A stretch of DNA of 64,000 nucleotides from Holophagaceae bacterium (GTDB taxonomy: Bacteria > Acidobacteriota > Holophagae > Holophagales > Holophagaceae). The notes below the pieces were generated by a model, which had not been told where the DNA came from, did not search any database, and was given only the letters and a program-made list of their open reading frames with translations. Location: positions 20,967 through 84,966 of the forward strand of contig JANYBM010000115.1 in NCBI GenBank assembly GCA_025361125.1. The letters are read 5' to 3'. The number at the start of each line of letters is the position of its first letter. Position 1 is the stretch's first letter. Of this stretch, positions 21,255 through 23,695 are shown in pieces. The position numbers were made by a program, and so were the translations under genes.

Positions 21255-22075
21255 TGCTCCCATTTTTTATCTGGGGGGCTGAGCCACCTGCGCCAAGGGC
21301 ACCAGCAGAGCCATCCGTGCTGGTCGCACCCGCCAGGGAGAGTCCTGCGGACCTGCTCTTTCGGCAGGCCAAGAACCTGCGTTATGGCCAGCGTTGGTAC
21401 GAGGCGGCTGTTATCTACCGTCAGATCCTGCATGAATATCCAACCTACTCGCGGCTTGCGGAGGCCCGCTTCTGGCTTGCATCAACCCTTGAATCGGACC
21501 AACGCTGGGATAGCGCAGCAGACGCCTATTCGGAATTCCTTAGCCAACATCCCGACCAGAAACTGCTAAGCCGCGAAGCCAAGCTCAACCGAATTCATTG
21601 CTGGGGGATTCGCCAGGGGCAAAGTCTCCAGGCGGCACCGGGGCTTCTATCCGCCCTGGACGATCCTTCCGATGAAATCCAGGTGGCCGCCGCCCTTCAG
21701 CTCTCCAAGACAGGAGATCGCCGCGCGGTGGAAGCCTTGCAGAAGGGCCTTATGATCGCATCCTGCTCCGAACCTTGCCGTCTGGCCTTGCTGGGCATGG
21801 GCATGGAACCAAAATCAGCACCATCCAAACTGAATGGACGCTTTCTCGTGCTACGCATCCAGGAAAAGGGCAAACCGGATACGGTAACCATCCGCTTGGC
21901 CATGGGCCTAGCCAAAGCGGTTGCCGGCTACTTGAGCGACGCCCAGATTCAACAGGCCAGGCATAAAGGCGTAGAGCCGGACCGGCTGATGGACATGGCC
22001 TTGAATGCCCCCAAGGGAACGGTCCTCCTCTCTGTGGATGACAAGGACAGCAGCATCACCATCACTACCGAATAA
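21254..22075 (+). CDS. TPR/HEAT repeat secreted protein
   Basis: LLFRQAKNLRYGQRWYEAAVIYRQILHEYPTYSRLAEARFWLASTLES TolA/YbgF-like TPR, then HEAT-like segment. Confidence 0.6.
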   Translation: MLPFFIWGAEPPAPRAPAEPSVLVAPARESPADLLFRQAKNLRYGQRWYEAAVIYRQILHEYPTYSRLAEARFWLASTLESDQRWDSAADAYSEFLSQHPDQKLLSREAKLNRIHCWGIRQGQSLQAAPGLLSALDDPSDEIQVAAALQLSKTGDRRAVEALQKGLMIASCSEPCRLALLGMGMEPKSAPSKLNGRFLVLRIQEKGKPDTVTIRLAMGLAKAVAGYLSDAQIQQARHKGVEPDRLMDMALNAPKGTVLLSVDDKDSSITITTE

Positions 22076-23444
22076 CCCGCTCCCCCAACATCTCGGCGAT
22101 TAGAAAGGCCATCTCCAAGCTTTGGGTTTGGTTGAGCCTCGGGTCGCACCCGGTTTCGTAAGCTTGGTGAAGGTCCAGTTCCGAGAGCTGCTGACTGCCC
22201 CCCAGGCACTCGGTAACCTCTTGCCCCGTCAATTCGAAATGCACAGCACCGAGATTCGACCCGAGCGCACGATGAACCTCCAGTGTCTGGTTCAATTCCG
22301 CAAGGATCTGGCCGAAGTCCCTGGTCTTGAGTCCATGCGCGGTCACAAAGCCATTGCCATGCATGGGGTCGCAGCTCCACAGCACCGGATGTCCCGATGC
22401 CTGCACGGCCTCGATCAGTTTCGGAAGCAAGGCACGCACATTATCCACACCCAAGCGGGGGATCAGTACCATGTGGCCCACTTCTTTACCGGGATCTAGC
22501 ACGGTCAGTAGTTCGCGAACATCTTCGGCGGAAACACCCGGCCCCAATTTGACCCCAATGGGGTTACGGATGCCCCGCAGGTACTCGATGTGCGCACCGC
22601 TCAAAGCTCGGGTGCGCTCGCCCACCCATAGCATGTGCGCACCCAGGTTGTAGTGGTGGCCCATACCCGTATCTTCCCGCGTGAGTGCTTCTTCATATGG
22701 AAGCAGCAGGGCTTCATGGCTGGTGAAAAATTCACCGGTCCGAAGGTAAATGCCCTTGGTCCCAGCGATGGCGTCCACGAAATCAATGGATTCCCGCACC
22801 CGTTCAAGAATGTGGCAGTAGGTGTCTATTTTTCGAGTAGAGCCTTGCAGGTCCCAGCGCTCCGGGTGGTGCAGGTCCGCGAAACCGCCCACCACGAGGG
22901 CTCGTAGATGATTCAGCGTTGCCGCGGCGTGGAAATAGGCTTCCACCATGCGCCTGGGATCCGGACGGCGCGCGGCTTCCGTGGCTTCCGCTGAATTGAT
23001 GAGATCCCCCCGGTAACTGGGAAGCTCCACCCCGTCCACGGTCTCCGTTTCCTTCGATCGCGGTTTGGCATATTGTCCCGCGATACGACCCACTTGGAAT
23101 ACCGAGCGGCGGCCTCCATGCGTGATGACAACAGACATCTGGAGAAGAATGCGCAATTTGTCGGAGATCGCATCGGGCTTGCAATCCGCGAATTGTTCCG
23201 CACAGTCGCCACCTTGCAACATGAAGCGCTTCCCGAAGCTCGCCTCCGCGATGTGCGCGCGCAAATCCTCCACCTCTTCGGGCACCACTAAAGGGGGCAG
23301 GCCACTTAGTTGGCGCAGATTCGTTTGGAGCCCTTCTTCATCCTGGTAGTGGGGTTGCTGCGCAGCGGGCCTATGCCGCCAGCTACTGGGGCTCCAGGTC
23401 AACGGTTCAACTCTGGTTTCGGGGATGGGGGCGAGGGCTGGCAC
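22065..23444 (-). CDS. 3-deoxy-7-phosphoheptulonate synthase, class II
   Basis: MLQGGDCAEQFADC, GRIAGQYAKPRS, GRTRALSGAHIEYLRGIRNPIGVKLGP, WSCDPMHGN; start chosen at GTG (PALAPIPETR) with caggag SD 6 nt upstream. Confidence 0.93.
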   Translation of the reverse strand: MPALAPIPETRVEPLTWSPSSWRHRPAAQQPHYQDEEGLQTNLRQLSGLPPLVVPEEVEDLRAHIAEASFGKRFMLQGGDCAEQFADCKPDAISDKLRILLQMSVVITHGGRRSVFQVGRIAGQYAKPRSKETETVDGVELPSYRGDLINSAEATEAARRPDPRRMVEAYFHAAATLNHLRALVVGGFADLHHPERWDLQGSTRKIDTYCHILERVRESIDFVDAIAGTKGIYLRTGEFFTSHEALLLPYEEALTREDTGMGHHYNLGAHMLWVGERTRALSGAHIEYLRGIRNPIGVKLGPGVSAEDVRELLTVLDPGKEVGHMVLIPRLGVDNVRALLPKLIEAVQASGHPVLWSCDPMHGNGFVTAHGLKTRDFGQILAELNQTLEVHRALGSNLGAVHFELTGQEVTECLGGSQQLSELDLHQAYETGCDPRLNQTQSLEMAFLIAEMLGERVIR

Positions 23445-23462
23445 GGGTGGCTCCTGAAAGGA

Positions 23463-23497
23463 AAACCCCCGATCCGCACTAGGCAAATCGGGGGTTT
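23463..23497 (-). terminator. Intrinsic-terminator-like attenuator hairpin in the DAHP synthase leader
   Basis: 11-bp perfect stem AAACCCCCGAT / ATCGGGGGTTT, 13-nt loop, followed on the minus strand by TTTTCCTTT. Confidence 0.85.
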
Positions 23498-23518
23498 AAG
23501 GTCTGGTTCTGTTCTTGG

Positions 23519-23593
23519 TTAGTTCAGGCCCCCTCCGACTCGCGCTGAGGTGCGAAAGCCAAAGTAATAAAAGGAGGTCCTAAGAATGTTCAT
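23519..23593 (-). CDS. Leader peptide MNILRTSFYYFGFRTSARVGGGLN (attenuation leader)
   Basis: 24-codon ORF directly upstream of the terminator hairpin, with a cluster of Phe/Tyr codons TTT TAT TAC TTT GGC TTT. Confidence 0.8.
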   Translation of the reverse strand: MNILRTSFYYFGFRTSARVGGGLN

Positions 23594-23695
23594 GAATCCT
23601 GCCACGCATGGCGCGTTCCTCCACCATGCCTGAAACCGCATAAAGGATCAAGGTCTCCGCCCTCATCCTCCTGGTCCCGATAAGCTAAGAGCACT

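Follow-up and report, generated by a model that had tools for sequence, protein, structure and literature searches.

A probable family-wide attenuator plan precedes aromatic amino acid genes

The class II DAHP synthase gene in the window (the whole 64,000-nucleotide stretch of Holophagaceae bacterium DNA that was analysed) is preceded by an element that is very likely, with a probability of about 0.88, a classical ribosome-mediated transcription attenuator that responds to charged tRNA-Phe and probably also to charged tRNA-Tyr. The element contains a short leader ORF in which codons for the pathway products form a run; this run, FYYFGF, is kept in relatives, and the downstream gene acts in the biosynthesis of the amino acids that are putatively sensed. 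We describe here the anatomy of the element, the energies of its alternative structures and its conservation among relatives.

All features lie on the minus strand. The product of the regulated gene (22065..23444) matches Pfam PF01474 with an E value of 1.3e-184, which bears out the earlier assignment, made from the letters only, of a class II DAHP synthase behind the leader; its best NCBIfam match, TIGR01358, scores 606.6 bits, slightly below the 614.7 cut-off. The leader peptide ORF, MNILRTSFYYFGFRTSARVGGGLN, occupies 23519..23593, with the codons for Phe-Tyr-Tyr-Phe-Gly-Phe, the putative regulatory codons, at 23555..23572. When re-read, the letters and coordinates of this Phe/Tyr leader ORF, of the Shine-Dalgarno-like CAGGAG (23456-23451) and of the GTG start at 23444 proved to be as given in that sequence-only reading. 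A candidate promoter, TTGATC-N17-CATGGT, can be read at 23623..23651. It has counterparts at matching hexamer positions, also with a 17-nt spacer, in two other genomes of the genus (TTGATT-17-CATCGT in G001 and TTGATC-17-CAGGTT in G004), so that the pattern TTGAT(C/T)-N17-CAnnnT, which falls below the threshold of our promoter scan, is common to the three genomes.

The predicted terminator and antiterminator are mutually exclusive

All 200 shuffled sequences fold less well than the 197-nt region (z = -3.3). Its predicted terminator is a hairpin at 23497-23463, beginning 21 nt after the leader stop, in which region 3 (the 5′ arm, AAACCCCCGAUUUGC, 23483..23497) and region 4 (the 3′ arm, GCGGAUCGGGGGUUU, 23463..23477) form 15 pairs, G-U included, around a 5-nt loop (-24.3 kcal/mol); an interrupted U-tract, UUUUCCUUU (23457..23465), follows the stem. 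The 11-bp perfect stem proposed earlier was thus correctly positioned but too short. The other two segments lie within the leader ORF. Region 2 (GCGAGUCGG-A-GGGGG, 23529..23543), identified by duplex folding as the 5′ strand of the antiterminator, resembles region 4 (GCGGAUCGGGGG), which is required if region 3 is to be the partner of both. Region 1 (UUAGGaCCUCCUU, 23571..23583) is the partner of region 2 in the fold of the untranslated leader, and relatives have an analogous helix.

The helix between regions 2 and 3 comprises 12 bp with one bulge and, at -23.8 kcal/mol as a duplex, nearly equals the terminator (-24.3); a pairing as good was found in 1 of 1000 shuffles (p = 0.001). The sequence-only reading had proposed a GGGGG:CCCCC antiterminator. 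Its exclusive pairing with the terminator 5′ arm was upheld, but the 5-bp extent was dropped in favour of the 12-bp helix obtained by duplex folding. When the RNA of the stalled state was folded to the end of the terminator 5′ arm, GCGAGUCGG-A-GGG paired with CCCCCGAUUUGC (-21.7 kcal/mol in context). Folding with region 2 masked gave the terminator, and the untranslated RNA folded into the 1:2 hairpin plus the terminator. The folding check proposed with the original reading has returned two exclusive structures, the antiterminator in the stalled state and the terminator when region 2 is masked. In the full-length RNA the balance of energies favours the terminator (-36.8 versus -21.8), and the switch must therefore be kinetic, decided during transcription.

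From this architecture we infer coupling of transcription to translation, ribosome stalling, termination and the identity of the sensed amino acids, as follows. RNA polymerase would transcribe the leader while a ribosome initiates at 23593. Under a shortage of Phe or Tyr, the ribosome would stall at codons 8–13 and cover region 1, leaving region 2 (23543-23529) free; once its A site has reached the Phe-Tyr-Tyr-Phe run, the RNA would be free from about codon 13. Region 2 could then pair with the terminator 5′ arm before the 3′ arm exists, and transcription would continue into the DAHP synthase gene. When Phe and Tyr suffice, a ribosome reaching the stop codon (23519) would cover the G-rich part of region 2, allowing the terminator to form and stop transcription short of the gene. 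In the case of no translation, region 1 would pair with region 2 and the terminator would form as well. The Phe/Tyr leader, the exclusive terminator and antiterminator, the cognate gene and the conservation of the plan with varying sequence together support the pheL/trpL-type logic first suggested for this locus.

The leader recurs in the genus and the family

We searched 93 genomes of the class for the FYYFGFRT codons. Exact matches were found in three of the five genomes of the window's genus, namely the window genome itself (G000, MNILRTSFYYFGFRTSARVGGGLN), G001 (MNLSATFFYYFGFRTLARVGGVLN) and G004 (MTPPCTFFYYFGFRTPVRVGGVLR); the FYYFGF codons differ synonymously among them (TTT/TTC, GGC/GGA). 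G004 has the whole arrangement. The copy in G001 is split, with the leader at the end of one contig and the terminator tail opening another, so that only two complete sequences of the element are available within the genus. The window-type DAHP synthase is missing from G002 and G003.

Two inexact matches to the same codons turned out to be leaders preceding pheA. We then searched for pheA through the class and read the upstream regions. In the Geothrix genus group (g4), a homologous leader stands before pheA in all 37 pheA-bearing genomes; these leaders have 21–22 codons (for instance MLTSRRFFAFSFRTSGARVGGV) and are accompanied by a CCCCCGAG...CTCGGGGG hairpin. The gene after pheA is a DAHP synthase at every locus examined in this group; in Geothrix limicola Red804, for instance, the order is leader, pheA, class II DAHP synthase. 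Variants of the leader occur in g3 (one genome) and g11 (two genomes), and genera g6, g8 and g10 have leaders that are unrelated in sequence and follow the same plan (for instance MTAHSATFTFTPAARRYYYGGGGGLVEAWSPNS). In the three g6/g10 genomes in which the gene behind the Phe/Tyr leader was checked, it encodes a chorismate mutase-prephenate dehydratase-ACT-class I DAHP synthase fusion (L186:132-2144, L187:1412-3454 and L188:173-2191). Wherever the downstream genes were checked, the arrangement places a DAHP synthase under the switch, and it is mostly pheA-DAHP synthase operons that carry leaders of this family. The sequence-only reading had staked its proposal on the leader and hairpin being conserved in relatives, and both recur across the genus and the family. 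Among 80 class II DAHP synthase loci from a genome collection, mostly of other phyla, none had a similar leader and terminator directly upstream, indicating that class II DAHP synthases do not carry the switch as a rule.

In a tree of 39 DAHP synthase sequences, the clade of the window enzyme and the pheA-linked class II enzymes are sister groups (SH-aLRT 92). A second class II DAHP synthase of the same genome (L002) has no leader and belongs to a separate clade, whose members mostly sit after a response-regulator gene. The pheA copies of G001 and G003 are located elsewhere and lack a clear leader, and a search of the window genome, which comprises 3.1 Mb on 181 contigs and is 92% complete, found no prephenate dehydratase. 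The simplest reading is that the leader and the window DAHP synthase once belonged to a leader-pheA-DAHP synthase operon that pheA later left.

Two further observations concern these loci. Geothrix-group leaders (for instance L127 and L144) have a candidate promoter, TTGC/TTGA-N17-(C/T)A(A/G)GGT, that ends about 12–13 nt before the leader ATG, which implies a very short leader 5′ UTR. Draft contigs break at or beside attenuator hairpins (L180/L181 of G001 and L277:1-24 on C1 of G000), and attenuators are therefore probably undercounted in assemblies.

Pairing is conserved across aligned leaders

We aligned 39 leaders for tests of pairing. The terminator stem is paired in 99.7% of cells, against 25–64% in slid controls, and at one pair the window's genus has G-C exchanged for U-A. 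The Geothrix-type 2:3 helix is paired in 91% of cells versus 35–56% when slid; in the window's genus its role is taken by a segment that lies several codons later, which is analogous and occupies different columns. The 1:2 helix is paired in 83.5% of cells in relatives, with covariation no better than in shuffles. In 20 representatives of 7 genera the stalled-state fold sequesters the terminator arm. The shuffle test of the 2:3 pairing was not significant in several relatives (p = 0.54 for L154, 0.23 for L178 and 0.20 for L179), and exchanges of regions 2 and 3 among genera gave only limited information, as GC-rich sequence is common to all of them.

Codon usage in the Geothrix leaders was also examined. 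At Phe codons 7, 8, 10 and 12 the third base varies at least as much as the first two, which are mostly kept, whereas at codons 13, 16–18 and 20–21 it is almost invariant, as expected where the RNA must pair. TTT accounts for 88 of 152 Phe codons in the leaders versus 47 of 281 in the pheA genes; we set aside codon selection as a reading of this excess, since RNA pairing may hold positions 10 and 12.

Alternative explanations

It is possible, though we consider it the less likely case, that the same attenuator responds to Phe only and that the Tyr codons contribute little: the Geothrix-group leaders are nearly pure Phe (on average 4.1 Phe and 0.24 Tyr residues), and PMC11802643 reports that Tyr availability had no effect on the C. 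glutamicum aroR leader. Against this stand the two adjacent Tyr codons that all three leader-bearing genomes of the genus retain; in these the leader is followed by a DAHP synthase gene without pheA.

Control of translation by masking or coupling of the ribosome-binding site, or an action through a protein or Rho in place of intrinsic termination, appears improbable. The U-tract is poor in several relatives (GGGGGCUUUC, GGGGGUUUUCGCA), as such a mode of action would allow, but in the leader set the stem generally has T-rich sequence after it, and the Shine-Dalgarno-like sequence lies outside the hairpin and is unmasked in the predicted leader and terminator folds.

An ordinary intergenic hairpin beside a chance short ORF, with no regulation, is more improbable still. 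Our promoter/terminator scan, which demands at least 5 T in the 8 bases after a stem, called neither the candidate promoter nor the terminator at this locus. However, the neighbouring gene upstream of the DAHP synthase gene is divergent, so that the only gene the hairpin could terminate is the DAHP synthase gene after it, and the leader, the hairpin and the 2:3 pairing all recur across the family. A tRNA- or metabolite-binding riboswitch, of the T-box or another type, with an accidental leader ORF can be dismissed almost entirely, as an Rfam covariance-model search of the element gave no match at the gathering threshold, T-box included, and nothing relevant up to E = 10, and the aromatic codons are conserved at the amino acid level.

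Leaders with other codons precede other amino acid genes

A covariance model built from the 39 leaders was searched over the phylum and the class. It recovered the training loci and many weaker matches, of which we fetched 60; 55 of these proved to be leaders before amino acid genes, namely asnB (21), proC (11), class I DAHP synthase (9), proB (8), hisG (3), an asnA-like gene (2) and ilvA (1). Gene identities were checked with Pfam and NCBIfam on fragments, the remaining members of each class being placed by inspection of the N-terminal protein sequence. The leader residues correspond to the genes: asnB leaders bear Asn (MTLQRFNLNNNRPLRADRAWDGEVLS), proB and proC leaders Pro (MIPVATLNPIPSQPIPGAPVGGI), class I DAHP synthase leaders Tyr-Trp (MTPRFHRYYWFPRTDRAWHGEGPA) and hisG leaders His (MILTSCHHARHHVAHRVKGEAF). 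The residue-gene match scored 16.5, whereas the best of 10000 permutations reached 10.3 and none did as well; this comparison is optimistic because the set contains related sequences.

Asn-rich leaders with a terminator precede asnB at L225, L226 and L227 (same genus as the window), L220, L224, L228, L232 and L238, and likewise at L246, L254, L256, L258, L267, L271 and L275. The 2:3 pairing is present in those asnB leaders that were folded, and we regard them as candidate asparagine-responsive attenuators. In the window genome, the asnB contig opens within a terminator of this kind, its first letters, AAAGCGGATCGGGGGTTTTTCTTT, making up the 3′ half. Pro-rich leaders with a terminator, candidate proline-responsive attenuators, precede proC at L219, L222, L229, L235, L236, L237, L240, L245, L259, L261 and L262, and proB at L230, L249, L255, L257, L264, L265, L272 and L273.

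Tyr-Trp leaders (for instance RFHRYYWFPR) precede class I DAHP synthase genes at L217, L218, L223, L239, L241, L243, L260, L263 and L269, so that different DAHP synthases may have leaders of their own within one family. His-rich leaders are found before hisG at L231, L251 and L268, and an Ile-containing leader before ilvA at L221. At L233:636-1886 and L248 an Asn-rich leader precedes the asnA-like protein, which has no Pfam match and matches asparagine synthetase A of NCBIfam only weakly, below threshold; it is possibly a divergent asparagine synthetase.

These results suggest that the window element probably belongs to a family-wide set of Holophagaceae attenuators, built on one scaffold with swapped codons for Phe/Tyr, Tyr/Trp, His, Ile, Asn and Pro. 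We know of no leader-peptide attenuator of biosynthetic genes with Asn or Pro specificity, and a literature search of partial coverage found none.

Discussion

Attenuation of pheA by pheL in E. coli is textbook knowledge. The window element shares with it the Phe-codon leader, the terminator and the antiterminator, and the Geothrix group also the position before pheA (chorismate mutase-prephenate dehydratase). It differs in its target, a DAHP synthase, in its inclusion of Tyr codons and in having no match to an Rfam leader family. The four-region logic of protector, antiterminator and terminator is also that of E. coli trpL and the classical his, thr, ilv and leu attenuators. Those act with other codons on other genes; in the window, region 2 closely resembles the terminator 3′ arm, and in some Holophagaceae genera, unlike in the classical systems, the loop of the 1:2 hairpin contains the regulatory codons. 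T-box leaders likewise sense tRNA charging upstream of amino acid genes, but they bind the tRNA directly, and the window element has no T-box match.

The aroF enzyme of C. glutamicum is a class I DAHP synthase, not class II. The aroR-aroF system of that organism, which belongs to a different phylum, is similar to the window element in having a leader with Phe-Tyr-Phe codons before a DAHP synthase gene, and when Phe is limiting, ribosome stalling there increases transcription (Neshat et al. 2014, cited through PMC11802643). For Actinobacteria, a survey in 2005 reported that Phe and Tyr operons were not preceded by conserved RNA structures (PMC1262725), and in a 2010 survey almost no predicted attenuator of Acidobacteria had an assigned function (PMC2965389). 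Our literature search, of partial coverage, found no paper describing this Holophagaceae leader family. The mechanism itself would be classical, with aroR-aroF as a precedent; the newer part is the family-wide set with its putative Asn and Pro sensors.

One predicted acidobacterial attenuator now has a clear gene, sensor and predicted switch, conserved across a family that includes a cultured species, Geothrix limicola, in which the switch can be tested. It would link regulation of the first step of the shikimate pathway to the Phe/Tyr branch. The family-wide set deserves a study of its own. The additional leaders suggest that codon-specific attenuation is a general scheme of amino acid control in the whole family, with Asn and Pro among its inputs.
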